Source: a virus. From it: DNA of 32,413 nt. A program made the translations under genes and the position numbers. The notes under the pieces were generated by a model, which saw only the letters and a program-made list of their open reading frames with translations, ran no database searches and was not told where the DNA came from. Positions within the stretch are counted from its first letter, which is position 1, and each line of letters opens with the position of its first letter. The DNA lies in IMG/VR virus record IMGVR_UViG_3300022929_000116, positions 1 through 32,413 of that record. The stretch is one strand, 5' to 3'. Shown piece after piece: positions 882 through 32,413 of the stretch.

Positions 882-896
882 TACGACCTCCTTGTG

Positions 897-923
897 TTGT
901 CCATAAGGGGCAGCAATTTGCGT
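897..923 (-). promoter_or_regulatory. repeated promoter-like element, copy 1
   Basis: The coding (-) strand reads ACGCAAATTG, five bases, CCTTATGGACAA. It is one of five copies with identical internal spacing, each ending 15-19 bases before a start codon in the leftward cassette. The TTATGG end could be a start site at GG, as in T7-family promoters. It serves the 492-881, 394-495 and 201-401 genes. Confidence 0.65.
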
Positions 924-935
924 CTCAAATAGACG

Positions 936-975: not shown

Positions 976-1401
976 TTATGCAGCAAGTCTTCGCTTGCCT
1001 TTCCATTTAAGTGTCATTGCCTCATACGTTAACGTATCGTACTTTTTTAGTTCTGATCTCGTTAAACCAGTTTCGATCTGTCTTTGCAGCCAATAGTTTT
1101 CAGAACTAGAAGCAATATAAACATCGAAATAAACGGCATATTCATGACGCAACGATGTAACTGCGTTTGGATGCAATGGAACACCGTTTACTTGACGAGG
1201 TCCACGAGCCATCAATGCAACGCGTTTTAGTTCGCCAATGTGCAAAGGCATTTTATTAAACTGCTTAACATAGTCACGCACACGTTTATTGTGCGCAGCA
1301 ACTAGCGTTTTTAAATGCAGCAAGTCTGGATCGTCTTTTGTGTACACGCTGAACTTATAGTTGTCAGTATAACGATTTTCGAAATTACAAATAAAAGACA
1401 T
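976..1401 (-). CDS. hypothetical protein, 141 aa
   Basis: The start at ATG 1401-1399 (MSFICNFENRYT) is preferred because GGAG lies six bases upstream; an ATG two codons earlier abuts the GGAG. The 141-residue protein is basic at the C-terminus (MTLKWKGKRRLAA) and has no clear membrane segment. The central part (ELKRVALMARGPR, then HEYAVYFDVYIA) suggests an alpha/beta fold. It is a single-gene unit with its own promoter element (copy 2) and terminator. No family recognised. Its place in a cassette of independently expressed small genes suggests an accessory host-takeover or defence-related role, by inference only. Confidence 0.75.
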   Translation of the reverse strand: MSFICNFENRYTDNYKFSVYTKDDPDLLHLKTLVAAHNKRVRDYVKQFNKMPLHIGELKRVALMARGPRQVNGVPLHPNAVTSLRHEYAVYFDVYIASSSENYWLQRQIETGLTRSELKKYDTLTYEAMTLKWKGKRRLAA

Positions 1402-1416
1402 TCGCATCTCCTTGTG

Positions 1417-1443
1417 TTGTCCATAAAGAGATAAAAAATGCGT
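1417..1443 (-). promoter_or_regulatory. repeated promoter-like element, copy 2
   Basis: The - strand reads ACGCATTTTT, five bases, CTTTATGGACAA, then the leader CACAAGGAG. It differs from the consensus at two bases of the upstream box and is perfect in the CTTTATGGACAA box. It serves the 976-1401 gene. Confidence 0.65.
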
Positions 1444-1455
1444 CTGAATTAAACG

Positions 1456-1482: not shown

Positions 1483-1620
1483 TTAGTCTTTTGGTATTTT
1501 GAGAAGATCACCGATTTTGTCTAACGTTTTTTGTCCGCAAGACGACATGCGATCGTAATCCCAAAACAAATCTTCAACGAGTTCGTACAGTTTTTCGATT
1601 TCAGATGAATTAAATTCCAT
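1483..1620 (-). CDS. small acidic protein, 45 aa
   Basis: The ORF runs from ATG 1620-1618 (MEFNSSEIEKLYELVEDLFW) to TAA 1485-1483. CGGAG lies seven bases upstream of the ATG. It is predicted to be mostly helical, with two helices around a DRMSSCGQ turn, and acidic. Its start overlaps the end of the 79-residue gene by eleven bases, so translation is probably coupled. It is the last gene of the operon under promoter copy 3. Function unknown. Confidence 0.7.
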   Translation of the reverse strand: MEFNSSEIEKLYELVEDLFWDYDRMSSCGQKTLDKIGDLLKIPKD

Positions 1621-1849
1621 TTGTTAACTCCGTTATTTTATCTTTCGCAGATTGAAGATAAACAAAGCTGCCATGATCTCTTACACTTTGCAGTTTGTCG
1701 TTTTCATACTCATATTCATTGACTACAAAACGATCTGCACCGATTGGATACGTCAAACATTGAATGCTGAATTGTGAATGTTCGACACACTCATATTGGT
1801 CGTCTTCGACTAGTGGGTCGTTTGATTCTACAAATTTAAACGTAAGCAT
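1610..1849 (-). CDS. hypothetical protein, 79 aa
   Basis: The start chosen is ATG 1849-1847 (MLTFKFVESNDP), with GGAG seven bases upstream and a TGATG overlap with the preceding micro-gene. A longer reading in the same frame would start inside promoter copy 3, before its own ribosome site, and is rejected. The protein is acidic (VEDDQYECVEHS; NEYEYENDK) and looks like a small beta-rich domain. No family recognised. It is the second gene of a three-gene leftward operon. Confidence 0.7.
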   Translation of the reverse strand: MLTFKFVESNDPLVEDDQYECVEHSQFSIQCLTYPIGADRFVVNEYEYENDKLQSVRDHGSFVYLQSAKDKITELTNGI

Positions 1850-1938
1850 CACATACTCCATAACGCGAGAAACAACATCATCGACATAAATATAATCGAC
1901 ACACAAACAAACTCGATTGCTGCTTGTAATTTTGACAT
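1849..1938 (-). CDS. 29-aa membrane micro-protein
   Basis: The ORF encodes MSKLQAAIEFVCVSIIFMSM plus a hydrophobic tail ending LFLALWSM. Residues 8-27 are almost wholly apolar, so it is one membrane helix with very short ends. The start at 1938-1936 has GGAG six bases upstream and is the first ATG after the promoter element. The TGA overlaps the next gene's ATG as TGATG. A longer frame crosses the same region, but its start lies upstream of the ribosome site, so this small ORF is better placed. Compare the 33-residue membrane peptide at 394-495. Function unknown. Confidence 0.6.
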   Translation of the reverse strand: MSKLQAAIEFVCVSIIFMSMMLFLALWSM

Positions 1939-1953
1939 CGCAAACTCCTTTAG

Positions 1954-1980
1954 TTGTCCATAAAGACATGAAATTTGCGT
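1954..1980 (-). promoter_or_regulatory. repeated promoter-like element, copy 3
   Basis: The - strand reads ACGCAAATTT, five bases, CTTTATGGACAA, a perfect match to the consensus, followed by CTAAAGGAG. It serves the 1849-1938, 1610-1849 and 1483-1620 operon. Confidence 0.7.
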
Positions 1981-2035
1981 CTAAAAACTAAATTGATTTA
2001 TAAACTGATTGCTGCGTTTTTTGTTCGTTTTCGAT

Positions 2036-2079: not shown

Positions 2080-2547
2080 TCATTTCGCAATTGCTTTCAT
2101 AACTTTGTCGATATATTTCGACTCGTTATTTCTCGCTTCGATTTCCCATGGTTGATTTAGATACGCTTCATAATTTTTTCGTGAATTTACAGGTTTGAAT
2201 TCTTTCGACTCAAACACATAGTTTGCACCTTTGTTCGACAATTTCTTAGTCGCATATTGTTGTGCATGTGTCATTTCATGAATGATTGTAGAAACGACAG
2301 CTTTTAAATCACGATCACGAATATCAATTGCGATTTCTTTTGACGAATGTTGATAGTGACCTTTTGCTGTTCGTAAATTTCTCACAAACATTTTCACATT
2401 ATCAACTTTGAAAATCTTTTTGCACTCATCAAACGCTTTGATCATGTCTTCAATATTTTCACGATAAAATTCGCGAAGGTCTTTGAAGTCACAAGCGACT
2501 GAACCAGTTGCAAATACGTCTTTTCTAACTTCGATAAATTTTGGCAT
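2080..2547 (-). CDS. SprT-like zinc metallopeptidase, 155 aa
   Basis: The start used is ATG 2547-2545 (MPKFIEVRKD), with GGAG six bases upstream; an ATG four codons earlier overlaps the GGAG. The catalytic motif IIHEMTHAQQY puts zinc-binding histidines at residues 90 and 94 and the catalytic Glu at 91. A downstream PWEIEARNNE (134-143) offers the third ligand, probably a Glu. Length and layout fit small phage zincins (SprT/M48-like in a broad sense). The N-terminal ~85 residues form a helical and beta-strand support typical of such domains. It is a single-gene unit under promoter copy 4. The substrate is unknown; a host protein target during takeover is plausible but inferred. Confidence 0.8.
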   Translation of the reverse strand: MPKFIEVRKDVFATGSVACDFKDLREFYRENIEDMIKAFDECKKIFKVDNVKMFVRNLRTAKGHYQHSSKEIAIDIRDRDLKAVVSTIIHEMTHAQQYATKKLSNKGANYVFESKEFKPVNSRKNYEAYLNQPWEIEARNNESKYIDKVMKAIAK

Positions 2548-2565
2548 AATTCGCTCCATGTTTTG

Positions 2566-2592
2566 TTGTCCATAAAGCGGTCAAATTTGCGT
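2566..2592 (-). promoter_or_regulatory. repeated promoter-like element, copy 4
   Basis: The - strand reads ACGCAAATTT, five bases, CTTTATGGACAA, a perfect consensus match. It precedes the metallopeptidase gene and follows the terminator of the 2631-2873 gene. Confidence 0.7.
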
Positions 2593-2605
2593 TCGAACTT
2601 TAACG

Positions 2606-2632
2606 AAAAAAAAAGACGCAATTAAGCGTCTT
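2606..2632 (-). terminator. intrinsic terminator of the 2631-2873 gene
   Basis: AAGACGC (2613-2619), loop AATTAA and GCGTCTT (2626-2632) form a perfect 7-bp stem. The A-run 2606-2614 yields a nine-base U-tract leftward. The gene's stop codon overlaps the stem. Confidence 0.9.
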
Positions 2633-2873
2633 AATTTCTTGAGTTGAAACCATTTTCTTCAATCAAATCACCAAGATCAAAGTCGATTATGTATTCACTC
2701 AAATTTGTTATGTCACCACATATTAATGATGTTGAACTGTCTTTTGTTTCAACACGAATATCATAATGTTTTGTGTCTTCAATCGACTCATCAGTCAAAT
2801 ATTGTGTTTCGATTTCAACATAATACTCATCATTTGAGTTGATCATCATGTTGTTTGAGATGTCGAATGCCAT
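2631..2873 (-). CDS. acidic hypothetical protein, 80 aa
   Basis: The start is ATG 2873-2871 (MAFDISNNMMINSNDEYYVE), with GGAG seven bases upstream. The protein is very acidic, with a C-terminus of DFDLGDLIEENGFNSRN and alternating beta-strand-like stretches. No cysteine pairs or membrane helix are seen. It is the first, promoter-proximal unit of the leftward cassette (promoter copy 5). No family recognised; the size and negative charge would fit a small inhibitor, which is inference. Confidence 0.7.
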   Translation of the reverse strand: MAFDISNNMMINSNDEYYVEIETQYLTDESIEDTKHYDIRVETKDSSTSLICGDITNLSEYIIDFDLGDLIEENGFNSRN

Positions 2874-2892
2874 TGTAATTCTCCAATGTCGT

Positions 2893-2919
2893 TTGTCCAT
2901 AAAGCCTACAAATTTGCGT
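2893..2919 (-). promoter_or_regulatory. repeated promoter-like element, copy 5
   Basis: The - strand reads ACGCAAATTT, five bases, CTTTATGGACAA, a perfect consensus match. It is the outermost copy and borders the divergent control region. Confidence 0.7.
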
Positions 2920-2985
2920 TCGAAGTTTATATTTTCTTAAAAACGTTTTAGCCCATAAATCTTATCCAACTCGAAAACAATTATC

Positions 2986-3004
2986 ATTAGATACTATATC
3001 TAAT
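2986..3004. promoter_or_regulatory. perfect hairpin, 8-bp stem and 3-nt loop
   Basis: ATTAGATA, loop CTA, TATCTAAT. The stem is perfect but has only one G-C pair. Phage N4 virion RNA polymerase recognises promoter hairpins with short stems and 3-nt loops, and this phage has an N4-like polymerase candidate. The link is a hypothesis only. Confidence 0.4.
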
Positions 3005-3123
3005 CACACACTCACTCACACTATCATAACATATTGATTTTGCTGAACAAATTGGCTCCCTTTCTCGTTTCGAATAACAAATCGATTATCATTAGAGCAT
3101 TTCGAAAAAGTCGGGAGTTGTTG

Positions 3124-3159
3124 TTGTTAGGGGTTCCTGCTTGATTTGCGCCCCAACAA
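3124..3159 (+). promoter_or_regulatory. possible leader hairpin before the late block
   Basis: TTGTT-A-GGGG (3124-3133) can pair with CCCCAACAA (3151-3159), with one bulged A and a 17-base loop. A second CCCCAACA at 3171-3178 overlaps the start codon of the fibre gene and could compete for the same G-rich strand, which would hide the start. Structure prediction by eye only. Confidence 0.3.
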
Positions 3160-3177
3160 ACCTATGGAGTCCCCAAC

Positions 3178-5985: not shown

Positions 5986-6278
5986 TGCATTCACTCAAAG
6001 TCCCTGTGGCACAGCGATGGTGCTACACAATTTATTTTGAACACGTTGTTGGCACAGGCACCTTTGCGCACTGTGTCGTCCACACCAAGTGGTCAAAACT
6101 TGTCAAACAGATGCTCGCATCAGGTTGGCATCTTGTTACTACCGCCCATGGCGGTCCGATCCATGCTTTGCACGATCCCAAAGACAAGAAACACAAGAAA
6201 TTTATAAAAATCTTTGGCTTTGCCTATCAGGAAACACTTGAAGACGGCAAAGAACTCTGGGTATGGAGAAATAAATAA
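5985..6278 (+). CDS. hypothetical protein, 97 aa
   Basis: It starts at ATG 5985 with AGGAGG six bases upstream; a GTG one codon earlier is possible. The protein contains many aromatic and His residues (WCYTIYFEHVV, then HLVTTAHGGPIHALHDPKDK) and a basic stretch DKKHKKFIKIFGF, ending ELWVWRNK. No known catalytic motif is clear. Its last base overlaps the start of the following ejection-protein gene. Proteins of this shape are found next to ejection genes in marine podoviruses, annotated as hypothetical. Confidence 0.7.
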   Translation: MHSLKVPVAQRWCYTIYFEHVVGTGTFAHCVVHTKWSKLVKQMLASGWHLVTTAHGGPIHALHDPKDKKHKKFIKIFGFAYQETLEDGKELWVWRNK

Positions 6279-7447
6279 TGGGTAGCTTTTTTCAAGGCAA
6301 AACCAAGGTCACACAGTCTATAGATCCGCTTCAACAGCAAGGTTTCGACGCTTACATGGGTGCGTTGAACCCTATCAGCAACTATTTGGGCGGCCAAATT
6401 GGCGGCATGATGGCTAACCCTACATATGGTGGCCAAACCTACGCTGGTCTCGACCCACTTCAAATGCAGTATTACAACCAAGCAGGTAATTTTGCGGGTA
6501 ACCAGATGGGCAACGCTAGTGCGTTAGGTGCAGGCGCTGCAAATAACTACAATGCGACCTCTGGCTATGGCAACCAAATTGCCAATTTTACAAACATGCT
6601 AAGTAACCCTAACGGCGCTTTTGGCATGGGTAATAGCCTTGCTAATTCGCCAATGGCACAAGGCATCATTGACGCCTCTAGCCGCGATATTACAAGAAAC
6701 CTTGGCTCAAACTTAGCCCAGCTCGACAGAACTGCAGCAGGTGGTGGCAACACAAACAGCATTCGCGCTGGTATGATGGAAGGCACCATGACTGGCCTTG
6801 CAGGCGACCGTATCGCAGACATCGGCGCAAAAGTGCGGCAGGACATGTTCAACCAAGGTGTCGGCCAATTTAACACCAACATCGGCCAACAAGCCAATGC
6901 TCTTGGTATGCTTCAAGGCGCAAATGCTAGTGCAGCCGGAAACATGCTCAATGGATTCAATCTTGGCAACAGTGCCTTAGGCGCGATGTCTGGTGCAGGC
7001 AACTTTATGAACCAGTACAACCAAGGTGCAATGGACGATGCTGCTAATCAGTTCTACTTAGGCCAAGATCGACCTTTCCAACTTGCAAGCAACTACATGG
7101 GCTTATTTAACCCATTATCTGGTTTCAACGGTGGTGCAGGTGGCTCAAGCTCACAAACTGGCCCTTCAGGCGCAGACAAAATCGGCACTGTTGCTAATAT
7201 TATTGGCACAGGAATGTCGCTCTTCTGTTGGGTAGCCCGCGAAGTTTACGGACCACACAACCACAGTTGGCTAATTTTCCGCCACTGGATGTTTGCTCAC
7301 AGCCCTCGTTGGTTCTTCAAGCTATACGCTACTTATGGTGCGTCTTTTGCTCAGTTTATCTCAGACAAGCCAAAAGCTAAACGCGTTGTAAAGCACTTCA
7401 TGGATCGCATTGTTCGTAAATACGGAGGCGCACATGGGTCTCTTTGA
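6278..7447 (+). CDS. internal virion / DNA ejection protein, 389 aa
   Basis: ATG 6278 overlaps the previous TAA. Residues 1-300 are rich in Gly, Asn, Ala and Gln with amphipathic helices (GNSLANSPMAQGIIDASSRD; LGSNLAQLDRTAAGGG), typical of injected core proteins. The C-terminal domain, from about 314, has the pattern CWVAREVYGPHNHSWLIFRH then SPRWFFKLYATYG and ISDKPKAK, which I recognise as a conserved ending of such proteins in marine phages. It is probably injected or forms part of the trans-envelope channel, as inferred from family and position. The next gene overlaps its 3' end by 14 bases. Confidence 0.75.
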   Translation: MGSFFQGKTKVTQSIDPLQQQGFDAYMGALNPISNYLGGQIGGMMANPTYGGQTYAGLDPLQMQYYNQAGNFAGNQMGNASALGAGAANNYNATSGYGNQIANFTNMLSNPNGAFGMGNSLANSPMAQGIIDASSRDITRNLGSNLAQLDRTAAGGGNTNSIRAGMMEGTMTGLAGDRIADIGAKVRQDMFNQGVGQFNTNIGQQANALGMLQGANASAAGNMLNGFNLGNSALGAMSGAGNFMNQYNQGAMDDAANQFYLGQDRPFQLASNYMGLFNPLSGFNGGAGGSSSQTGPSGADKIGTVANIIGTGMSLFCWVAREVYGPHNHSWLIFRHWMFAHSPRWFFKLYATYGASFAQFISDKPKAKRVVKHFMDRIVRKYGGAHGSL

Positions 7448-8685: not shown

Positions 8686-11600
8686 ATGCCAACAATGCAG
8701 GAGCTCGAGCGTGCGTTAGTTAATGCTGACCGCGCTGGAGACACTAATGCTGCGCGAGCACTTGTGCAGGAAATTAAGAACTTTCAGGCTCAACCCTCAC
8801 AACCGCAAGGCGACACGTCCTACGGCACTGCATTTGAATATGGTGATTTAACCACACGCGCAAACACCCTTAACTACGCAGCTGACGCAAACCAAGCTAT
8901 GGACGACGGATTGCTTGGTGATTTTACGCGTTTTGGCAGAGAAAATATTGGTAATCCTGTACGCGAGTTTTTTGGCTTTGATCCTATCGACACTGACGCT
9001 GTAAATGCTCAATACGAAGCCAATAATCGTGCTCAAGCTGATGCTTTAAACCAGCAAGCAAGTGATCTTAATTACAGATCGCTTACTACAGATGACGTAA
9101 CAGGGATTGGCTCAGCACTAAATTACGCAGGCCAAAAAGTAGCAGAGTCTGCTCCAGCTATGATTGCGTCTATTGCTGCACCAGCTGTTGCCACGCCTCT
9201 CATTATGTCCGGTGAAGTCAACGAAGGCTTGAAAAGCATCGAAGGACTGACACTCGACGAAAGAGTGCGCTACGCAACAGCGGGTGGCGCTATTATGACT
9301 GTGCTAGAGAATTTAGGTGCTAGCTTAATATTAAAAGGTGTTCCTAAAGAAGTTGTCGGCAAAATGGGCGCTCAACGCATCGCGGATTTGCTCAACAAGC
9401 GCGGTTTGACCCGCGTAGCTGGTGCTGTGCTTGCTGCTGGCACCGGTGAAAGTGCAACAGAAATAGGCCAAGAAATTACCAAAGTAGGTGTTGAAGCCTA
9501 CGCCGGTAAAGACTTTGCTGAAGGTGAAATCGGTACACGTTTAAAAGAAGCAGGCGCTGCAGGCTTTGCAGCCGGTGGTGCTATCAGAGGTAGCGGCACT
9601 GCAATCTCTGAAACAGCAAAGGCTGCCTCAAATGCCGCAGAAAACATGGATGGCCTTAAAGCTATCCATGGCGGTGACAAAGAAGCTCTTGCTGATGTCT
9701 CTCGTGATGTTGTCCAGCTGTCAAGCCAGTTCAATGATCGAAACCCTACCAAAAGTCTTGAAGACGCCGACGCAACTCTTCGTGATCTTCACACAGCCTA
9801 TATGAAGCAGTTCGATGAGGCTAAGCGCCGCGCTCAAAGCGCAGGCATTGACACCTCATCTGCAGACTTTGCTACAGCAGAGCGCCGCGCAAAGAACAGA
9901 GCTAAAAACGAAGCCTCTAATGCAGACATTGACTATTTAAGCCAAGTCGACCCAGAGCTCGGTGCATTAGCTCGTAAACTCAACGTCATTACGCGTTTCA
10001 CACAAAAAGGTGTAAAAGGTGGCGTTAGCCAGTTTACCGATCTGCTCAACCCAATCGAAGGCTTGAAAAAGTCAGGCACTTTTGGTCGCGGTGTAGGTGG
10101 TATGCAAGCTACAGGTGCATCCGCGCTTGCTGCTTACACATCAGGCGGCACAATTGCTGCGTCAGTAGGTGGTCGTTTAATCGACGCTGCCACAGGCTCT
10201 CGCAACCGCGTTAACAAGGCAATTAACAAATATTCTAACCGTGCAGGCATAGACACTTCAGGCCAAGGCCAAGTGCAGCAAAATGAAGCTGCCGCTACAG
10301 CCCAATCTGAAGCCCTGGCGCGCGCTAAAGCTACGCAAGCTGCAAACCTACAGCAACAGAACATAGCTAACCTCAAAGCTGGCTATGACTCTGTAGGTGG
10401 TGCTGAAGCTGCAATGCGCCAGCGTACTGGACTTAATCGCCAGCAAACAGCCGTTGCATTAAGAAGCCTTAAACGCAGCAGACCAGACCTTGCCCCGACA
10501 ATTAAAAGCTACGAAGAGAGTTTGAAAACAGGCTCTCGTGTCGGTGAGCAGTCACGCGAATTTTATAATCTACAAGACGCAATAGTAGGCCGAGCAAAAG
10601 AGCTCGGAATGGAAGTAAATGAAACTAATCAGAACCAAATGCTGCAACCTAATAGCATGGCGGCAAACTTTGCGCGTGGCGGTATCGGAAATCCTATCGC
10701 TTATCAAGCAACTGTTGACAATGCTATGCGAACAGCTCAAGTGGCTGTGGACAATGCTCCCACTCCAGAGCTTGCTCAGCTTGCCAACAAAATTGCTAAC
10801 GCACGCACAAAAGCTCTTAAGCAAGCTCAACTTGAAGAAGCAGTAGCTAATAACCCAGAGCATAAAGACTACTTGCTCAACGTTGTTGCACCACTCGCAG
10901 AGTTTGGGCCAGTTGAGACAAAACAAGAGTCTCGTTTTGGTGTGCCTGGCGGCGACATAATTCAAGAAGAAATGGACGCAGGCCAACAACTATACGGCGA
11001 TCGTATGGTTATATTAAACCACGGCACAAGCAAAAGTTCTGCTTCAGCAATTGATGCAAGTGGCTTTTCTACTCCGTCTGTATTTGCGGCAGTTGATCCA
11101 GCTGACGCTGATAAGTTTGCGCAGACAACATTAAATCTAAAAGATAACGGTCGCATCACAATGATGTGGCCTGAAAAAATCTTTGAGCAGCTAAAGCGCA
11201 ATAAGCTCATTAAAACCGAGCCGTACAAAACGCCTTTTGGTAAAACTATAAACGAATATGTAGTGTCGCCAACAGCGCTAGATAAAGCTGATATTTTCAG
11301 ATCTCGCTCACTTCACAAAGCTGGCAATAAAATCACAGATGCACAGCGCGCTCAGCTTGTAGCTGACGCACTAGGCAATGGTTTTAAAGTCCAGTTTAAC
11401 GCAAGCGACGATGCTTACTACAGACGCCAAGAGCTCATTACTCTGACTTCAAATGGTGACAAGCGTAAAGTCTTACACGAGATTTTTCATGCTGTCGAAA
11501 ACCGTCTTACACCAGAAGAAATGAGCATTATTCAATCTCATCCTACGTACAAAGATGTAATGGCTGAGGTTGAAGAGCTTTATTCCGATCTAAACCCCTC

Positions 11601-14208
11601 CGCAAAAATGCTTGAAGGACTTGCTGAAACTGCAGCACGACTTCAAGAAGCACGCGGCGAAAATATGGGTCGTGTAAAGTACATCTTGTCGCGCATTAAA
11701 GATCTTATTGAAGCCTTCAAGCAGCTAATCGACGGCAACGGCTTTACTAACGTTAATAATATTCTTGATGATGTTTACACAGGCAAAGCACACCAGCGCC
11801 AGATCAATGAGCATTACGCAGATCTATATGTTCCTGATATTGCTTACGCAAAGAAAGACAAGCCTGGTGGACCAATGGTCGCTAAGCGTCTTGCTGCTCT
11901 CGACAAAATTCAAGAGCTAGCCAAAAACGCTAAAACCATCGCTCCTACAATTAACAGCCAATATGACGAAGCAATGACAAACATTGCAAACAACCTTGGT
12001 CTTCCAAGTGTCACACCAGAAGTCCTTAAAAAGACTTTGTCGCGTGTAACACCAAACACCGACCTTGGCATGATTGCAGCAGACTACCTTCGTGCTATTG
12101 GCGTCATGAACGACCAGGGCATTGTCAATAAAGACCCTGACGCAGACATTGATGAAGTAGTATCACAGTATCGTGAAGACTTTTTAGTGCTGCTCAAAGC
12201 ACTTCAAAAAGCAAGTGTTATCGATGACTTTGGCCTTGCCTTCAGAACATCGGCCGGTGGTCGTATGTATCCTGTCCATATGCTCGTTCCTAAGCTCCCA
12301 GCATTGGAAGCTAAAGCCGAGTTAAACAACGTCCGTAAATTTGAAAACAGAGCTAAGCCAACCCATTGGGAAGGCAAGATTGAGATCAACGGCCATCCGT
12401 TTGGCAACTACGACAACACGGAAGCCTTTATTGATCGTGAACAAAAACAAGCTCTCGTAATCAACGACAAGATTTATGAGATGATGGACAAGATGCAGTC
12501 CACACCACAAATTCACCGTGGACTTGATCTTATATACAAAAAGGATGGAACTACAGACAGTGCGTATACGCTGGCTGCAGCAGAAGCCTTAAAACAGTAT
12601 AAAGACAACCAAGGCGAAAATGGTGGCATGACTCCGCTGTTCATGAAGCGCCGTGCACAAGATCGACTTCGTGTAGACACTTTAAACGGCTCTGCGTCAT
12701 ATCAAGGCAAAGCAGGTAAAGCTATTTGGGAGTTTCCTAATTGGGAACCACTAGGCGAAACTGGCTTTGAGCAAATGCTTCATAGCATGCGCGATCATTT
12801 CGGCATTTCAAATGAACTTCCGTACAATGAACGTGTCGGCTTTTTGTTTGGCACAGTCGGGCAGTATATGCAGCTTGCTGGTCGTCCAGCTAGCGATGCT
12901 ATTCCGCAGTCAGATCTAGACATGCCTCTTATCGACTATTTGGTCAATGCCTATGGTCAGGATGGAAGCTATGTGTTTAGCCACACACGCGGAGGCACGC
13001 CAAAGCTGTTTCTTGACAAGCAAAGCGGAACTACTCTTTACCAAAAGAACCACGCATTGTTTGACGTTGCAGATCACGGCTTTGAAATACAGCGTGCAGC
13101 CATCGAACTAGGGCGCATGAGGTCTTATCTGGAAAATATTATACCAGGTGCTAAAAAGATCCCATCAAGCGAGCTCTTTATGATGCCACAGTCTCAAGAG
13201 GCTTTGGCAGACTTCAGATCAAGCTATCCTGTTTGGTTCGATGGAACATCATCTTCATACCAGCTACACGCTGTGCTTACTGGCGACGCCAATTTGGCCC
13301 AAGAAACTAACATTGGACCAATGGACCCAGATGGACCAGGTGGCGATTTGTACCGCCCTGGTGCCGAGTATCTTCAGCGTGCACTTGACTTGCCACAAAC
13401 TAAAACACGCAAGATTACTAAGAAATTCATTAGTAATCGGCGCAGTTATGGCCAAGTTAAGCTCACAGCACTCAAATCTGGTGCAGATGAGATAGCAAAG
13501 TCAGTGCCTGCATATGCCGAGCGTGACGAGAGTGGCCAATGGCCGCAGCAAATCAAAGACAGTTTGAAGCAAATTCAAAACGATCTTGAGTTGCAGTTCG
13601 ACACACGGTTCCCAGGCGCTGCAATGGCAGAAGGTGTCGCAAAGTCAATTGCTAGCACAATGTACAACATGCAAGGGCAAGATATGTTTGCTGTGCGTGT
13701 TCCTCTTCCAGACGGAGACGTTGCTGTCTATACAGGCAAATTGCCAGACAGTGCAAAGAAGCGCGTAAAATGGAGCATCGACAAAGACAAGAACATTGCC
13801 GTTCCAGTTTTTGAAGACAAGAAAGCTATCACAGGCTTTGCTGCCTTTTTGAACCACGCTTTAGACGCTTACGTTCAACGCGAACTTGCAAAACGTCTTC
13901 GTGCTAATGGAGCAACAGGCTTTATGCACACACATGACGCTTTTGCTGTGCACGCTAAAAACGGCGAACTCATGCGACAGCTTTACTGGCAGATTTTGAG
14001 AGAGATTGCAGCTCAGCCAATTTATCAAAAGATACTTGAGGCAAACGGCTTAGATCCAAATTCAATGTCTGTTCGTTACAACATAACGACACCAGAAGGC
14101 TCACAAACCGCAGAGCGCCCAATGGCAGATGTGCTTCAGCAAATCGAGCAACAAAAATCAATGACATTCGGACAAGAAGCAGAACCGAACTTCTACGCAT
14201 TGTCATAA
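8686..14208 (+). CDS. 1840-aa polyvalent injected virion protein with zincin and candidate virion RNA polymerase
   Basis: A TAGGAG site precedes ATG 8686. The N-terminus (LERALVNADRAGDTNAARAL) is typical of injected polyvalent proteins. Residues ~140-310 are Ala/Gly-rich with membrane-compatible helices (SAPAMIASIAAPAVATPLIM). A possible ADP-ribosyltransferase-like segment has HGTSKSS at 779, VFAAVDPADADKFA and EYVV at 857. HEIFHAVE at 931-938 is an HExxH zincin motif. The last ~650 residues carry candidate single-subunit RNA polymerase motifs: SAGGRMYP (1189-1196, cf. T7 DxxGR), PVWFDGTSSSYQ (motif A, Asp1519, cf. T7 DGSCSGIQ), RKITKK...RRSYG (motif B, Lys1580, Tyr1588; spacing Lys-x7-Tyr as in T7) and HTHDAF (motif C, Asp1751, cf. 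T7 HDSF). The order is right. The 326-residue gap between SxxGR and motif A is longer than in T7 or N4. By analogy with N4, this would be packaged and injected to transcribe the first genes. The zincin call is fairly sure, the polymerase probable, the ART weak. Confidence 0.75.
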   Translation: MPTMQELERALVNADRAGDTNAARALVQEIKNFQAQPSQPQGDTSYGTAFEYGDLTTRANTLNYAADANQAMDDGLLGDFTRFGRENIGNPVREFFGFDPIDTDAVNAQYEANNRAQADALNQQASDLNYRSLTTDDVTGIGSALNYAGQKVAESAPAMIASIAAPAVATPLIMSGEVNEGLKSIEGLTLDERVRYATAGGAIMTVLENLGASLILKGVPKEVVGKMGAQRIADLLNKRGLTRVAGAVLAAGTGESATEIGQEITKVGVEAYAGKDFAEGEIGTRLKEAGAAGFAAGGAIRGSGTAISETAKAASNAAENMDGLKAIHGGDKEALADVSRDVVQLSSQFNDRNPTKSLEDADATLRDLHTAYMKQFDEAKRRAQSAGIDTSSADFATAERRAKNRAKNEASNADIDYLSQVDPELGALARKLNVITRFTQKGVKGGVSQFTDLLNPIEGLKKSGTFGRGVGGMQATGASALAAYTSGGTIAASVGGRLIDAATGSRNRVNKAINKYSNRAGIDTSGQGQVQQNEAAATAQSEALARAKATQAANLQQQNIANLKAGYDSVGGAEAAMRQRTGLNRQQTAVALRSLKRSRPDLAPTIKSYEESLKTGSRVGEQSREFYNLQDAIVGRAKELGMEVNETNQNQMLQPNSMAANFARGGIGNPIAYQATVDNAMRTAQVAVDNAPTPELAQLANKIANARTKALKQAQLEEAVANNPEHKDYLLNVVAPLAEFGPVETKQESRFGVPGGDIIQEEMDAGQQLYGDRMVILNHGTSKSSASAIDASGFSTPSVFAAVDPADADKFAQTTLNLKDNGRITMMWPEKIFEQLKRNKLIKTEPYKTPFGKTINEYVVSPTALDKADIFRSRSLHKAGNKITDAQRAQLVADALGNGFKVQFNASDDAYYRRQELITLTSNGDKRKVLHEIFHAVENRLTPEEMSIIQSHPTYKDVMAEVEELYSDLNPSAKMLEGLAETAARLQEARGENMGRVKYILSRIKDLIEAFKQLIDGNGFTNVNNILDDVYTGKAHQRQINEHYADLYVPDIAYAKKDKPGGPMVAKRLAALDKIQELAKNAKTIAPTINSQYDEAMTNIANNLGLPSVTPEVLKKTLSRVTPNTDLGMIAADYLRAIGVMNDQGIVNKDPDADIDEVVSQYREDFLVLLKALQKASVIDDFGLAFRTSAGGRMYPVHMLVPKLPALEAKAELNNVRKFENRAKPTHWEGKIEINGHPFGNYDNTEAFIDREQKQALVINDKIYEMMDKMQSTPQIHRGLDLIYKKDGTTDSAYTLAAAEALKQYKDNQGENGGMTPLFMKRRAQDRLRVDTLNGSASYQGKAGKAIWEFPNWEPLGETGFEQMLHSMRDHFGISNELPYNERVGFLFGTVGQYMQLAGRPASDAIPQSDLDMPLIDYLVNAYGQDGSYVFSHTRGGTPKLFLDKQSGTTLYQKNHALFDVADHGFEIQRAAIELGRMRSYLENIIPGAKKIPSSELFMMPQSQEALADFRSSYPVWFDGTSSSYQLHAVLTGDANLAQETNIGPMDPDGPGGDLYRPGAEYLQRALDLPQTKTRKITKKFISNRRSYGQVKLTALKSGADEIAKSVPAYAERDESGQWPQQIKDSLKQIQNDLELQFDTRFPGAAMAEGVAKSIASTMYNMQGQDMFAVRVPLPDGDVAVYTGKLPDSAKKRVKWSIDKDKNIAVPVFEDKKAITGFAAFLNHALDAYVQRELAKRLRANGATGFMHTHDAFAVHAKNGELMRQLYWQILREIAAQPIYQKILEANGLDPNSMSVRYNITTPEGSQTAERPMADVLQQIEQQKSMTFGQEAEPNFYALS

Positions 14209-14227
14209 AATACCTAAGGAGAGCAAA

Positions 14228-14614
14228 TTGAAATCTTACGAGCTATATCAGCTTATCGAAGTTTTCGACCAAATGATGAAAGACGAGCGCTTTACCAAAC
14301 AAGCGCGAATTAACATGGGGCAAGAGTTTATTAACGCTATGCCTCCAGCATCTTTAGTTAAAAGCGCATCGCAAACATACATGATGGTGCGCAACTACAT
14401 GGCAGTCATACTGCAAGGAGCTGTTCAAAATGGACAAACCGAAAGCGACGATAAATCCAAAGTCAAAACGCCTAGTGGCAGCACCCCAGATAAAACCAGC
14501 ATGGACGGAAAAGAACATGCACATGCATCCGATAAAACGGATGAAGCTGGAGGGCGGCGAAAGGTGGGAAAGACATCTGGAGCACCTTCGAACAGTAGGC
14601 GCAAAAAATCATAG
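14228..14614 (+). CDS. hypothetical protein upstream of terminase, 128 aa
   Basis: It starts at TTG 14228 with AAGGAG six to eight bases upstream. Residues 1-68 are a well-ordered helical domain (YELYQLIEVFDQMMKDERFT; NMGQEFINAMPPASLVKSAS). From residue 69 on it is low-complexity and charged (DDKSKVKTPSGSTPDKTS), ending in RRKKS. This tail is read in one frame while the start of the small terminase is read in another, a 185-base overlap. The first part looks real; the tail may simply be what the overlap permits. Possible role in packaging, from location only. Confidence 0.6.
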   Translation: MKSYELYQLIEVFDQMMKDERFTKQARINMGQEFINAMPPASLVKSASQTYMMVRNYMAVILQGAVQNGQTESDDKSKVKTPSGSTPDKTSMDGKEHAHASDKTDEAGGRRKVGKTSGAPSNSRRKKS

Positions 14615-14957
14615 ACCAGTCGGAGTACCAGATGGCTGGGGTCGCCAACTCGATAAACTTGCTGAAGTTCGTGAACAATTACGAGTTAAAGCAGAACAGA
14701 AAGTACAGCAAATGATTGAACAAGGTTTACTACCGTCTGACGACGATATTGCCAAGCGCGCTGTCACAGTTTTGCTTGAGATCGCTGAAGGACCTGATGC
14801 TGCCACCACTAAAGCTGGTGCAGCAAAAGCTCTTTTGGAGTTCACCAAGCAGAAGCCCGTGAACAAGCATGAAGTAAAGGCGGTCGCTGAAGAGTGGCTG
14901 GCAAGTCTAGATGACAACAGCGAAAGCACAGAAGATCAGGAAGCAATTGAGGGATGA
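14430..14957 (+). CDS. terS: small terminase subunit (DNA recognition), 175 aa
   Basis: AAGGAG lies nine bases before ATG 14430. Residues ~1-60 are basic and low-complexity (overlap zone). From PVGVPDGWGRQLDKLAEVRE onward the protein is helical, with a typical TerS layout: a helical domain, an alpha-helical oligomerisation stretch (VTVLLEIAEGPDAATTKAGA AKALLE), and an acidic C-terminus (LASLDDNSESTEDQEAIEG). It would bind the packaging site and activate the large subunit. It lies immediately before and overlaps terL by 47 bases. No textbook helix-turn-helix was proven by eye, so the call rests mainly on position and helical form. Confidence 0.65.
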   Translation: MDKPKATINPKSKRLVAAPQIKPAWTEKNMHMHPIKRMKLEGGERWERHLEHLRTVGAKNHRPVGVPDGWGRQLDKLAEVREQLRVKAEQKVQQMIEQGLLPSDDDIAKRAVTVLLEIAEGPDAATTKAGAAKALLEFTKQKPVNKHEVKAVAEEWLASLDDNSESTEDQEAIEG

Positions 14958-16485
14958 CTTTGGATTTTATTCCAAAAACGTTCTCAAAATTAGAACAAAA
15001 GACGGCGACGTAACTGCCCTTGAACTTAATGAAGCACAACAAAGTCTTTTAGAAAAAGTTGAAGAGCAGTTTAAAAATGAAGGCAAAGTTCGCGTCATTA
15101 TTCTAAAAGCCCGCCAAATGGGCTTGTCTACAATGGTCGGTGGTTGGCTATATTGGTGGTTGTCACAACGCAAAGCACAACGTGGCTTAGTTGTGACCCA
15201 CCACGCCGACAGCACCAGAGCTTTGTTCGATATGACAAGGCGCTATCACGAAAACTGCCCAGATCCTATTAAGCCACACACAAAATACTCTTCAAGACGA
15301 GAGCTAAACTTTGACATCTTAGATAGCTCTTACGTTGTTGCGACGGCTGGTGGTGAGTCAGTTGCGCGAGGTGAAACAGTCACTGTTGCGCATCTATCAG
15401 AACTTGCTTTCTGGTCGCATTCAACTGCCGAAGAAAATTTCAACGCTATTATGCAGGCTGTGCCTAACAAGCCAAACACAGCAGTCTTTATCGAATCAAC
15501 CGCCAATGGCGTTTCAGGCAAATTCTATGATTTATGGAAAGGCGCTTGTGAAGGCACCAACGGTTTTATACCAGTATTTTTGCCTTGGTATATTCAAGAA
15601 GAATACCAAGAGCCGTGGGTCTATGGATCTGATTATACGCCTGAAGAAGAAGAGCTTATTAAAAAATACCAGTTAACAAATGAGCAGCTAGCATTTAGAC
15701 GCAAAAAAGTAGCACAAAACGGTATTGATTTGTTTAGGCAGGAATATCCGTCTGATGCTGACGAAGCCTTTTTAACGTCAGGGCGACCTATATTTAATCC
15801 AGACCAAATATTAGAGTTTCTGGAAAAAGCCAATGAGCCAGTAGCTCGCATGGCTTTAGAAGACGAAACATGGGTAAAACATCCTAGAGGTGAATTAACT
15901 CTTTATAAAGATGTCGATCCAGGTGAGATGTACACAATAGGTGCTGACGTTGCCATGGGTATACGCGGCGGTGACTATTCCGTTGCCCAAGTGCTAGACA
16001 GCAAAAAGCGACATGTCGCAACATTCAGAGGTCATGTGCATCCTGATTATTTTGCAGATGTTCTTTTGCGTTTGGGTGAGTTTTTTAACGACGCGTATAT
16101 TATTTGTGAAAGCAACTCCCACGGTCTTTTAACGTGCACACGTTTGTACAAAGATTACGGTTATTCTAACTTTCACACTGAAATTGTTGTCGACAAAATA
16201 AGCGACAAAGAAACCATTAAATTAGGTTTTTCCACAACTTCAAAAAGCAAACCACTAGTGATCAACGAGCTTAGAGCTTCGCTTCGCATGGATGAACTTG
16301 AAATCCACGACAAAGTGACTTTGCGCGAAATGCTTACTTATATCGAGACAGAAACTGGAGGCATGGAAGCTGAAGCAGGCTGCCATGACGACTGCGTGAT
16401 GTCGCTTGCGTTTGCAAACTATGGGCACCAGCAAGGCTGGGAGCCTGTCCAAATTTATGATGATTATTACAGCGAGGCAATCTAA
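14911..16485 (+). CDS. terL: large terminase subunit (packaging ATPase-nuclease), 524 aa
   Basis: ATPase domain: Walker-A-like LKARQMGLST (65-74), Walker B with catalytic Glu in VAHLSELAFW (Glu164), and coupling motif ESTANG (195-200). Nuclease domain of RNase H fold: GADVAMGIRGGDYS (Asp346), ICESNSHG (Glu400) and CHDDCVMS (Asp493/494). Length and motif order match headful-type TerL of P22-like and marine podoviruses. It cuts concatemers and pumps DNA into the procapsid through the portal. The start at 14911 lies inside the small-subunit gene; a later ATG at 14954 is out of frame. Its last base overlaps the ATG of the portal gene. Confidence 0.95.
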   Translation: MTTAKAQKIRKQLRDDFGFYSKNVLKIRTKDGDVTALELNEAQQSLLEKVEEQFKNEGKVRVIILKARQMGLSTMVGGWLYWWLSQRKAQRGLVVTHHADSTRALFDMTRRYHENCPDPIKPHTKYSSRRELNFDILDSSYVVATAGGESVARGETVTVAHLSELAFWSHSTAEENFNAIMQAVPNKPNTAVFIESTANGVSGKFYDLWKGACEGTNGFIPVFLPWYIQEEYQEPWVYGSDYTPEEEELIKKYQLTNEQLAFRRKKVAQNGIDLFRQEYPSDADEAFLTSGRPIFNPDQILEFLEKANEPVARMALEDETWVKHPRGELTLYKDVDPGEMYTIGADVAMGIRGGDYSVAQVLDSKKRHVATFRGHVHPDYFADVLLRLGEFFNDAYIICESNSHGLLTCTRLYKDYGYSNFHTEIVVDKISDKETIKLGFSTTSKSKPLVINELRASLRMDELEIHDKVTLREMLTYIETETGGMEAEAGCHDDCVMSLAFANYGHQQGWEPVQIYDDYYSEAI

Positions 16486-28400: not shown

Positions 28401-28826
28401 ATGGAGCAGCACATCGATAAACTACTTGAACAACTAATCAGACACGAAGGCATGGAGTTAAAACCCTATAAATGCACATCAGACAAGTTGACAATAGGCG
28501 TTGGTCGGAACCTACAAGACGTTGGCATCACAAAAGAAGAAGCCTTAGTGCTGTTAGAAAACGACGTCAAGAACGTAGAGCAACAACTCAAGCACTACAT
28601 GCCGTGGTCAGAGACACTAGATCCTGTCCGTCGTGCGGCATTGATCAACTTTGTCTTCAATGTGGGTATAGGAACAGCACTCAAATTCGAAAACGCAATG
28701 GCAGCGCTAAAACAGTCGGACTACGACACAGCGGCAGCCGAGCTGCTCAACAGCAGGTGGTCCACCCAAGTTGGATCGCGCGCACAAGAGCTTGCAGCCC
28801 AAATGCGCACAGGTAGCTGGCAATAA
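28401..28826 (+). CDS. endolysin, T4-like lysozyme (GH24), 141 aa
   Basis: The catalytic pattern is E-8-C-5-T: Glu16 (RHEGMELKPYK), Cys25 and Thr31 (SDKLTIGVGRNL). T4 lysozyme has Asp at the Cys position; Cys occurs in other members of the family such as P1 Lyz-type enzymes. Later family motifs are visible: ALINFVFNVG and ELLNSRWSTQVGSRAQE. No signal peptide is seen, so release would need a holin, consistent with the two upstream candidates. It is the last gene of the rightward late block; a terminator follows. Confidence 0.9.
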   Translation: MEQHIDKLLEQLIRHEGMELKPYKCTSDKLTIGVGRNLQDVGITKEEALVLLENDVKNVEQQLKHYMPWSETLDPVRRAALINFVFNVGIGTALKFENAMAALKQSDYDTAAAELLNSRWSTQVGSRAQELAAQMRTGSWQ

Positions 28827-28853
28827 CTTCAGACGCAATTTTTATCATCTAAT

Positions 28854-28884
28854 GCACTGGTCCAATCACGGACCGGTGTTTTTT
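28854..28884 (+). terminator. intrinsic terminator of the late block
   Basis: CACTGGTCC (28855-28863), loop AATCAC and GGACCGGTG (28870-28878) form a 9-bp stem with one G-U, followed by six T's. It separates the late and lysis genes from the integrase. Confidence 0.95.
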
Positions 28885-28905
28885 CACTTTATAAGGAGCA
28901 AAACA

Positions 28906-29730
28906 ATGAAACTAAGTGAGCTTCTAAACGAAGCTGGCATGAAGCTGTGGAAGGACAAAGAAGGTTGCAAAACCTTTCATTCGCAGGCTCGAAGATGTGT
29001 AGAGATACTCAAAGATCCTGATATTAAAGACATCGACACGCAGATGGTCGATAAGTACGTAGAAGGTCTTGAAAAAGTAATCACACATCGTGGCAAGCCT
29101 ATGACTGGTACGTCTATAAACCACAATATTAGTGTTCTTAGTACGTTGCTGCGTTACGCAAAACAAAGAAACCTAATAGACAAATTGCCATATTTTTCAC
29201 GCAAACAGCCTTCACCCCATCGTGTTCGCTGGCTGTCTCCAAACGAAGAAGAGAAAGTATTTGCGGCTATAGACTCTGCTGACTATTTGATAGCAAGAAA
29301 ACATAGGCAAGAAATGAAAGCGCTCGCGCGTATCTTAATAGATACAGGCATGCGCCGAGGTGAAGTGCTTGGTCTAACCAAAGAAAATCTTGATGGAGAT
29401 TGGGTTAGACTGTGGAAAACAAAAACAGGCAAAGCGCGTTCAGTACCTTTAACACCTGAAGCACGCGCTTTACTAGAAACTCACGTACCATTCGAGATCA
29501 AAAGACATCAAGTCCACAGATTTTGGGCTAAGGTTCGTGAGGAAGTAGGTCTTTCTAAGGATGCACAATTTGTGCTGCACACGTTGCGGCACACCACTGC
29601 GACGCGCATGCTGAAAAAGACTAAGAATATAGCGATGGTACAGCGAATGCTTGGTCACTCGAACATAACTACAACACTACGTTATGCTCATATTGACGAC
29701 CAGGACTTGCTAGACGCCGTCAATTCCTAA
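28906..29730 (+). CDS. int: tyrosine-family integrase, 274 aa
   Basis: The start is ATG 28906 (MKLSELLNEAGMKLWKDKEG), with AAGGAG eight bases upstream; a longer in-frame reading crosses the terminator and is rejected. The N-terminal core-binding domain is about residues 1-95. The catalytic domain shows Arg150 (TGMRRGEVLG), Lys ~172-176, His225 and Arg228 in HTLRHTTATR, His251 in LGHSN, and the nucleophile Tyr260 in TTLRYAH. All canonical residues are present, so it should be active. It would recombine attP (29762-29826) with a host tRNA-Arg gene. No excisionase or repressor is seen in the window. Confidence 0.95.
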   Translation: MKLSELLNEAGMKLWKDKEGCKTFHSQARRCVEILKDPDIKDIDTQMVDKYVEGLEKVITHRGKPMTGTSINHNISVLSTLLRYAKQRNLIDKLPYFSRKQPSPHRVRWLSPNEEEKVFAAIDSADYLIARKHRQEMKALARILIDTGMRRGEVLGLTKENLDGDWVRLWKTKTGKARSVPLTPEARALLETHVPFEIKRHQVHRFWAKVREEVGLSKDAQFVLHTLRHTTATRMLKKTKNIAMVQRMLGHSNITTTLRYAHIDDQDLLDAVNS

Positions 29731-30413: not shown

Positions 30414-30504
30414 AGAACATAGCAAGAACACACGCACATCCTAGCAAATAAGTCAAGACTTTAAGAAGCCGCACTAAAGCAGATTAGTGTTGAATGGAGG
30501 TGCA

Positions 30505-32413
30505 ATGGATTCTCTACAAGAGATCTCTATGCTCGAAGATGGAATAGACAGATTCCTAACTCAAGAAGAGCAACTTTCTAAAACAGGTATTTTAGGAACC
30601 GTAGACACAAAATTAGTTAAAGGAGCAATTCCTTTAGTTTCTGAACAAATTTCTAAAGACTTAGAGTTAACAAGCCGCATTACTAGCAAGCCATTCTGGT
30701 ACTACGCATTAGATAACTTGAACAACGACACAATCGCTTATATTGGATTGAATTATGCCTTTATTGGTGTCGGTCAATTTACAGATTTGACCAACATTTG
30801 CACCAACATAGGTAAGCAAGTTTGTGTCGAATTATGGGCTTTAGATTTTTCATCTAAAAACCCAAAGCTGTTTAAGCGTCTATTCGAAATGGCCCGCAAA
30901 AATCACAACTCTAGCCGCCATAGGCTTAAAGCTATGTCAGCTGTTGCTGGGCGTGAAGGCTATGGTGTCGAAAGATGGACTGCTGAGCAGCTAGTAAATG
31001 TTGGTCAAGCTGTTTTAAATTCTGTGATAGCAGGATCAGGGTTATTTGAAGTTTATGATAGACCGAAGAAGAAGTTCTTCGTCAAAAACTTAGGTTTAAC
31101 AGAAGTAGGTAGAAAACTAGTCGATGATCTTACTGACCAAATACAGTGGATGTCGCCATTGTTTAAACCAATGCTGTCTGAGCCAAAGCCTTGGACATCT
31201 TTCAATAGTGGCTGCTACCACAATCCTAAATTAGCTAGTCTTGTCCCTCTGGTAAGACGAGCTAACAGCAAGCAAAAGGAGCTGATTGACACTGCGTTTA
31301 AATCTGGATCTATGGATCGGATTACGAGAGCACTTAACGCTGTTCAGTCAACTCCTTTTGCGATCAACAAACCAGTGCTTGAGCAAGTGATTGCTTCATG
31401 GGAACGTGGTGATGTCATCAACAAGTTTCCACGACAAGCAAAGCTAAAAGTCCCAGGCAAAACTAAAAACTGGGAGGAACTTGATAGCAAGCAGCGCAAG
31501 CACGTCAAAAAGACAAAAGAAAAGATCATACTTCGCAACAGAGCTTTTGATGCTGATGTTGTTAACATGTCTACAGATCTTAATACTGCTAAAGAGCTTG
31601 CTAAACACGACAAGTTCTACTTGCCTCATAACTTAGATTTCCGTGGTCGTCTTTACCCTATACCAACATTTAACCACCAAAGAGCTGACCACATACGTGC
31701 GTTGTTTCAATTTGCGCGTGGCAAGAAACTAGGACCTACTGGTGCTTATTGGCTTTGCATCAATGTTGCCAACACTGGTGACTTTGACAAAGTGAGTAAA
31801 AAATCCCTCAATGACCGCATTGCATGGGTTAATAAAAACCAGCGTGCTTTGTACTTAATCGGTAAAAAGCCAGGGCTAACAAGAAGCCTATGGCAAGAAG
31901 CCGACAAACCATTTTTATTCTTAGCCGCTTGCATTGATTTTGCTGGCTATGTCGAAAATGGTGACGATCATATCTCTCACATACCACCTTCAGTTGATGG
32001 TGCTAATAGCGGTGTTCAACACTACAGCGCAGCACTCAGAGACGAAAAAGGTGGTGCAACAGTTAACTTAACATACGCAGACAAGCCTGCTGATGTTTAC
32101 CAGATTGTTGCAGATAGAGTTAACGATGCTATTGCTTCTGACACTTCAGATGAAGCAGCAGCTTGGCGTACATATGGTGTGTCGCGCAAAGTTGTTAAAC
32201 GCAACGTCATGACTTTTGCCTACTCAAGCGAAAAGTTTGGGTTTAGGCAACAGCTCATGGAAGATCTTATGAAACCGCTAGAAGACGATGTTCTAGAGGG
32301 CATAAGAGAAACACACCCATTTGGCGAAGACAATGGATCTAAATGTGCCAGTTTTATGGCAGGCAAAGTTTGGGATGCCGTTAATGATGTTGTTAAAAAA
32401 GCAGCAGAAGGAA
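30505..32413 (+). CDS. T7-like single-subunit RNA polymerase (partial, 636 codons visible)
   Basis: GGAGG lies four bases before ATG 30505, and the reading frame is open to the window edge. Motifs of the T7 RNA polymerase family are clear: DFRGRLYP (378-385; DxxGR), motif A PSVDGANSGVQHYSAALRD (Asp498) and motif B RKVVKRNVMTFAYSSEKFGF (Arg561, Lys565, Tyr573). T7 has YG where this has YS (Ser574). Motif C (HDxF) lies beyond the window. It would transcribe phage genes from its own promoters; the repeated element in the leftward cassette is a candidate. A sigma70-like promoter lies upstream. Confidence 0.95.
   Translation, partial: MDSLQEISMLEDGIDRFLTQEEQLSKTGILGTVDTKLVKGAIPLVSEQISKDLELTSRITSKPFWYYALDNLNNDTIAYIGLNYAFIGVGQFTDLTNICTNIGKQVCVELWALDFSSKNPKLFKRLFEMARKNHNSSRHRLKAMSAVAGREGYGVERWTAEQLVNVGQAVLNSVIAGSGLFEVYDRPKKKFFVKNLGLTEVGRKLVDDLTDQIQWMSPLFKPMLSEPKPWTSFNSGCYHNPKLASLVPLVRRANSKQKELIDTAFKSGSMDRITRALNAVQSTPFAINKPVLEQVIASWERGDVINKFPRQAKLKVPGKTKNWEELDSKQRKHVKKTKEKIILRNRAFDADVVNMSTDLNTAKELAKHDKFYLPHNLDFRGRLYPIPTFNHQRADHIRALFQFARGKKLGPTGAYWLCINVANTGDFDKVSKKSLNDRIAWVNKNQRALYLIGKKPGLTRSLWQEADKPFLFLAACIDFAGYVENGDDHISHIPPSVDGANSGVQHYSAALRDEKGGATVNLTYADKPADVYQIVADRVNDAIASDTSDEAAAWRTYGVSRKVVKRNVMTFAYSSEKFGFRQQLMEDLMKPLEDDVLEGIRETHPFGEDNGSKCASFMAGKVWDAVNDVVKKAAEG

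Follow-up and report, generated by a model that had tools for sequence, protein, structure and literature searches.

A predicted single-subunit RNA polymerase fused to an ejection-type protein in a clade of ~40-kb phages

The DNA analysed here (the window) is a stretch of 32,413 nucleotides from a virus, positions 1 to 32,413 of IMG/VR record IMGVR_UViG_3300022929_000116. Its central feature is an open reading frame (ORF) of 1840 amino acids (aa), in which an ejection-type N-terminus and an HExxH-containing middle region are followed by a predicted single-subunit RNA polymerase (ssRNAP; RNAP, RNA polymerase). The ORF is the third gene of an ejection-type cluster, after an ejection-protein gene and a gene for a 417-aa protein. 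Downstream of it are the genes for terminase, an SU10-type portal, scaffold and the major capsid protein, and this order is conserved in relatives. The same genome carries a T7-like RNAP gene beside an integrase gene, which an earlier note on this DNA did not mention. Coordinates are collected in Table 1.

That note had proposed a virion-packaged polymerase in the C-terminus of the 1840-aa protein, and profile searches bear out the polymerase. Residues 1506-1578 match the Pfam RNA_pol family PF00940 with 30.5 bits (cut-off 22; E=2.2e-7), and two PHROG RNA polymerase families match the protein at 6.8e-9 and 1.3e-8. PF00940 also matches all 17 members of the homologue alignment, at best with 1.9e-11. 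In a tblastn search of 50,697 phage records (E-limit 10), the weak matches of the polymerase region fell mostly on genes annotated as RNA polymerase. Profile-profile comparisons with hhalign related the C-terminal region to RNAPII of phage N4 (gp15 plus gp16; E=3.2e-11) and to T7-like enzymes (E=7e-8), while the controls, 20 column-shuffled profiles and reversed ones, gave best E-values of only 0.003 and 0.026. In a sequence-profile search of the PDB, yeast mitochondrial RNAP was found, and N4 RNAP2 weakly. The enzyme thus resembles T7-like polymerases and N4 RNAPII, and not the N4 virion RNAP (vRNAP) that the note had named for comparison: three vRNAP profiles, taken whole or split by subgroup, yielded nothing meaningful (hhalign best E 0.08-0.27), although the T7 profile does recognise the same vRNAP profile at 6e-13. 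The vRNAP was therefore rejected as the closest relative. That the domain arose as a duplicate of the T7-like RNAP encoded by the phage itself is less favoured, since the profile of that enzyme matches more weakly (4e-5) than that of N4 RNAPII (3e-11).

An AlphaFold model of residues 1310-1840 was built from an alignment of 23 window and locus sequences, with no T7-like sequence included. The model is confident (predicted local distance difference test, pLDDT, 77.5; predicted TM-score, pTM, 0.77) and contains the palm/fingers fold that the polymerase claim presupposes. In a fold search of the PDB all 50 matches listed were ssRNAPs (yeast and human mitochondrial RNAP, T7, N4 RNAPII), with a best E of 2.6e-9, a probability of 1.00 and identities of ~13-17% to the solved polymerases. 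The top matches in BFVD were phage RNA polymerases. An earlier model of residues 1051-1840 from 13 sequences was poor (pLDDT 53), and Foldseek still placed human mitochondrial RNAP first (E=0.017). Homology and predicted fold together make it almost certain that the 1840-aa protein ends in an ssRNAP of ~790 residues.

The strings on which the note had relied all lie where it placed them: SAGGRMYP at residues 1189-1196, NELPYNERVGFL at 1376-1387, PVWFDGTSSSYQ at 1515-1526 with D1519, RRSYG at 1585-1589 and HTHDAF at 1748-1753. Conservation was examined in 23 sequences with 61-91% identity to the window. D1519, R1575, K1579, Y1588, H1750 and D1751 do not vary. For motif B, the note had paired K1580 with Y1588 as K-x7-Y. 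The tyrosine is invariant, but K1580 is threonine in two relatives and the invariant lysine is K1579. The R-x3-K element is thus kept as R1575-x3-K1579, with one extra residue before Tyr-Gly. In the T7 family, motifs A, B and C follow one another in a fixed order, each with its own secondary structure. In the model, D1519 stands at the end of a strand that is followed by a helix, R1575 and K1579 lie in a helix that stops before Y1588, and D1751 is at the turn joining two strands. This predicted placing of D1519, K1579, Y1588 and D1751 corresponds to the order of motifs A, B and C in an ssRNAP palm and fingers.

SAGGRMYP, which the note had taken for the DxxGR motif, was rejected in that role. 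Its arginine is valine in L014 and in the group formed by L047, L049 and L051-L054, it lies 330 residues ahead of motif A, and the alignment with N4 RNAPII places DxxGR at the invariant QDRLR instead. On this alignment QDRLR is probably the better counterpart, and the enzyme appears to keep the arginine of DxxGR but not its aspartate and glycine. The C-terminal ssRNAP is quite likely to be catalytically competent.

Table 1. Positions of the features discussed in the text (nucleotides of the window).
Feature	Position	Strand	Remark
1840-aa polyprotein, cysteine-free: ejection-type N-terminus, HExxH region, C-terminal predicted ssRNAP	8686..14208	+	
N-terminal ~564 aa	8686..10377	+	homologous to positional orthologue of RNAP-less sister phages
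HGTS...SGFSTP...FA stretch	11020..11385	+	ADP-ribosyltransferase-like by eye only; missing from L018/L019
HEIFH, residues 931-935, zincin-type HExxH	11476..11490	+	kept in all relatives examined
Predicted ssRNAP region, residues 1051-1840	11836..14205	+	best-conserved part of the protein
Modelled core, residues 1310-1840, ssRNAP fold	12613..14205	+	AlphaFold pLDDT 77.5, pTM 0.77
SAGGRMYP, residues 1189-1196	12250..12273	+	DxxGR candidate of the earlier note; Arg not conserved
QDRLR, residues 1325-1329, invariant	12658..12672	+	aligned with DKRGR (DxxGR) of N4 RNAPII
Motif A PVWFDGTSSSYQ, D1519	13228..13263	+	
Motif B RKITKKFISNRRSYG, R1575-x3-K1579-x8-Y1588-G	13408..13452	+	
NHALDAYVQRE, H1724	13852..13884	+	aligned with THSIDGLVVRE segment of N4 RNAPII
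Motif C HTHDAF, D1751	13927..13944	+	
Ejection-cluster gene 1	6278..7447	+	PHROG DNA ejection protein, 9.2e-14
Ejection-cluster gene 2, 417 aa	7410..8663	+	no family match; position conserved
Canonical T7-like RNAP	30487..32412	+	cut by window end; 839-844 aa in intact relatives
Promoter-like motif	896..931	-	
Promoter-like motif	1416..1451	-	upstream of 976-1407(-)
Promoter-like motif	1953..1988	-	upstream of 1610-1969(-)
Promoter-like motif	2565..2600	-	upstream of 2080-2559(-)
Promoter-like motif	2892..2927	-	upstream of 2631-2900(-)
Promoter-like motif	28825..28860	+	start of integrase/T7-like-RNAP region, directly before terminator-like hairpin

Cysteine is absent from all 1840 residues, where 13.7 would be expected from the other ORFs of the window (P about 1e-6), and from eight relatives of the protein. 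The same holds for 11 of 11 Schitoviridae vRNAPs, while T7-like RNAPs have 6-13 cysteines and those of the clade itself 9-13. Lack of cysteine has been named as a trait of N4-like virion RNAPs (PMC8515928). By analogy, its absence may reflect a constraint shared by chains that cross the envelope. Together with the gene position and the homology to sister ejection proteins described below, it makes packaging of the 1840-aa protein in the virion and its ejection highly probable, as read from the genome.

About 31 IMG/VR contigs carry the polymerase region, with 57-98% identity over the last ~790 residues, and the long contigs of this RNAP-fused clade measure 39-42 kb. Across the family the C-terminal part of the protein is more conserved than the N-terminal part. 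The whole protein gave no tblastn match in isolate phages, and no contig with relatives in bacterial genomes was confirmed. A scan for relatives based on the portal, of which the best 80 of 300 were kept, brought out sister phages with ~50% portal identity and a gene at the same place encoding up to 1713 aa. At its N-terminus their protein is homologous to that of the window (~560 aa at 27-28% identity, with E as low as 3e-21) and most of them have a C-terminal HExxH, but no RNAP domain was detected in the sister ejection proteins even at E=10. A T7-like RNAP is present in the two sister phages with enough sequence, and it differs from that of the RNAP-fused clade (36% identity). These comparisons suggest, as the simplest history, an older ejection protein and an older T7-like RNAP, with a second polymerase becoming fused to the former in the clade of the window. 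The polymerase domain would then have been added C-terminally to an older HExxH-bearing ejection protein, in one clade of ~40-kb phages and independently of the N4 virion RNAP.

The note had also described a metallopeptidase in the same chain. HEIFH is indeed present at residues 931-935 and kept in relatives, but beyond the motif the homology of the region to the N4 metallopeptidase (MPTase), a zincin domain, was not significant in a profile comparison (E=0.001). Searches with Pfam, NCBIfam and profiles gave nothing convincing for ADP-ribosyltransferase (ART) or zincin domains, and no Pfam match to them in the window. The middle section of the ejection protein is modular: extra inserts of ~97-170 aa occur mid-protein in L005, L007 and L011, and the HGTS region is missing in L018 and L019.

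Repeat searches in the long genomes yielded a 36-bp motif, TTTCnnACGCAAATTTn5CTTTATGGACAA, whose copies lie shortly before most of the small genes on the minus strand and close to where the integrase/T7-like-RNAP region begins. A matrix was built from three genomes, and held-out genomes were scanned too. With this matrix, 55 sites were found across 344 kb of the RNAP-fused clade, held-out genomes and window among them; 204 kb of sister contigs had none, and neither did stretches of N4 and T7 or shuffled sequences. A strict pattern run over 2.9 million viral contigs retrieved 18 stretches, and 10 of the 11 loci not already known encode proteins of the clade. In the minus-strand cluster, sigma-70-like sites show no enrichment (9, against 9.3 expected), while terminator-like hairpins do (12 vs 2.2). 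The motif is linear, unlike the N4-type promoter hairpin with its 3-nt loop, and the hairpins adjoining it look like terminators. Ahead of the structural genes, a search for a distinct repeated promoter that might serve the T7-like RNAP found none.

Other elements were seen around the motif copies. Minus-strand copies are often directly preceded by a terminator hairpin plus TTTTTTTTCGTT. The hairpin at 28854-28879 (GCACTGGTCC..GGACCGGTGT TTTTT), which follows the plus-strand copy, is conserved in relatives; an attenuator, a small RNA and the terminus of the lysis operon are candidate identities for it. In the divergent region 2901-3177, ATTAGATA..TATCTAAT and TTTCGAAAAAGTCGGG..TTGTTGTTGTTAG are conserved across four genomes; an operator and a late promoter are possible identities.

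Taken as a whole, the findings are probably best explained by an ssRNAP that is packaged in the virion as the C-terminus of the ejection protein, is ejected, and transcribes the first phage genes ahead of the T7-like RNAP. The 1840-aa protein, the largest of the three ejection proteins, would be packaged in the head, would cross the envelope together with the DNA and would refold in the cytoplasm. There its ssRNAP would probably start transcription of the small genes on the minus strand and of the stretch that encodes the integrase, the DNA-binding protein and the T7-like RNAP, with ACGCAAATTTn5CTTTATGGACAA as candidate promoter. The T7-like RNAP would then take over and serve the later genes. 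Such a cascade has an analogue in N4, where vRNAP makes RNAPII (PMC4496689).

Several observations weigh against this reading. DxxGR is degenerate, so the activity is not certain; the TM-scores of the PDB fold matches are moderate, about 0.4-0.5; hairpins stand right behind the plus-strand copies of the motif, an unusual arrangement for a promoter; and most sister contigs are fragments, so the absence of the motif there rests mainly on the near-complete genome G008, together with partial ones. The RNAP-like domain might be ejected and no longer polymerise, acting instead as a DNA-binding or motor-like part of an ejectosome. The QDRLR sequence, the variation at K1580 and the low identity to solved polymerases fit such a role. 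Loss of function would, however, predict loss of catalytic residues, and no variation is seen down to ~61% identity at either catalytic aspartate or at R1575, K1579, Y1588 and H1750, in a region better conserved than the rest of the protein. We consider this explanation unlikely. Still less probable is a polymerase that is active but is produced and works within the infected cell, in the middle or late phase, and is not packaged. It is true that packaging is read from the context of the gene and that, to our knowledge, activity confined to the cell is the rule for phage polymerases apart from the N4-type vRNAP and the virion enzymes of jumbo phages. The domain is, however, fused to an N-terminus common to the ejection-cluster proteins of RNAP-less sister phages, its gene lies among structural genes just ahead of terminase and portal, and the chain is free of cysteine where the T7-like RNAPs of the clade have 9-13.

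The promoter step has rivals of its own, and there is an even chance that the ACGCAAATTT...CTTTATGGACAA motif serves the T7-like RNAP or a host sigma factor instead, or else functions as an operator. Compact repeated promoters are used by T7-like RNAPs too, the motif's TTTAT-GGA end looks by eye like the TATA-GGG melting and start region of T7 promoters, and a promoter of another sequence would be expected for the divergent T7-like RNAP of the sister phages. No copy of the motif was found, however, upstream of the structural genes, the usual targets of such enzymes; it precedes the T7-like-RNAP region itself and small, presumably early genes. The lack of enrichment of sigma-70-like sites speaks against a host sigma factor. 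Reading of the motif by the ejected polymerase falls slightly short of an even chance, and the link is offered tentatively because G008 is the sole near-complete sister genome and the plus-strand copies stand directly before hairpins.

Other genes of the window and its relatives were also noted. A tyrosine integrase gene (28771-29730, +) neighbours those for the DNA-binding protein and the T7-like RNAP, an arrangement shared with several Autographiviridae, and given this gene the phage may be temperate. The tail fibre (24786-26465, +) ends in a C-terminal C1q domain (Pfam 7e-12). The small gene 2080-2559 (-), under a promoter-like motif, has an HExxH of its own (HEMTHAQQ) and relatives at 18 loci. 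In L193 (G002), thymidylate synthase and ribonucleotide reductase (6479-7249, 13172-15082) are encoded in a replication module that the window is without.

The closest functional parallel to the 1840-aa protein is the N4 virion RNAP (gp50, Schitoviridae). N4 has three ejection proteins, of which vRNAP is the largest (PMC12633501). In both systems a large cysteine-free polymerase is the product of the third ejection gene and has an HExxH in the same chain, and in both the phage has a second ssRNAP; early-gene transcription, as in N4, is proposed here by analogy. The differences are considerable. The window protein is half the size (1840 aa vs ~3000-3800 aa), its polymerase domain gives no detectable profile match, and its HEIFH at 931 precedes the C-terminal RNAP (1051-1840), whereas the HExxH of N4, at 2228, follows it. 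The genome measures ~40 kb against ~70-75 kb for N4-type phages, and the second polymerase is a single-chain T7-like enzyme (839-844 aa) instead of the heterodimeric gp15/gp16 RNAPII. The window protein would thus act like N4 virion RNAP, but it falls outside that group by homology, domain order, genome type and partner polymerase. N4 RNAPII itself is the best sequence match of the catalytic domain, with a common motif A (YPV..D.TSS..Q..A.LTGD) and a common segment around motif C. Unlike the window domain, which is fused to an ejection protein, it is a heterodimer made early in infection. With T7-like and mitochondrial ssRNAPs the domain shares the fold, motifs A, B and C and the order of secondary structure; those enzymes have no such fusion, are not in the virion and contain cysteine.

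Phage polyvalent proteins offer a further parallel, since here too a polymerase, an HExxH metallopeptidase-like region and possibly an ART-like one stand in one presumably injected chain. In the survey of such proteins by Iyer et al. 2017, N4-like virion RNAP modules were found only in N4-like phages (PMC5512222), to which the phage of the window does not belong, and virion ssRNAPs have been stated to be confined to that group (PMC5512222, PMC12633501). N4-like proteins have been proposed for F116-like and StenR_269 podophages (PMC5217972, PMC10747016), for StenR_269 only from size, helix content and lack of cysteine (PMC10747016). No earlier report of an ejection protein-ssRNAP architecture of the present kind was found in the open-access literature. 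Jumbo phages such as phiKZ and AR9 follow the same strategy, a virion polymerase and a later phage polymerase, with virion RNAPs that are multisubunit and unrelated to the ssRNAP of the window.

An independent second origin outside Schitoviridae, in which an RNAPII-like ssRNAP was fused to an ejection protein and acquired its own linear early promoter in a cascade of two ssRNAPs, is an attractive possibility to which we give somewhat less than even odds. If it is true, injection of a single-chain polymerase by a phage is a repeatable evolutionary solution, and its essentials (a cysteine-free chain, the third ejection gene, an HExxH neighbour) are separable from the history of N4. The sister phages, whose ejection protein is the same but for the missing polymerase, provide a natural control. 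A putative virion polymerase that is compact, sits at the C-terminus and has a candidate linear promoter would, moreover, lend itself to study more readily than the 3500-residue enzyme of N4.

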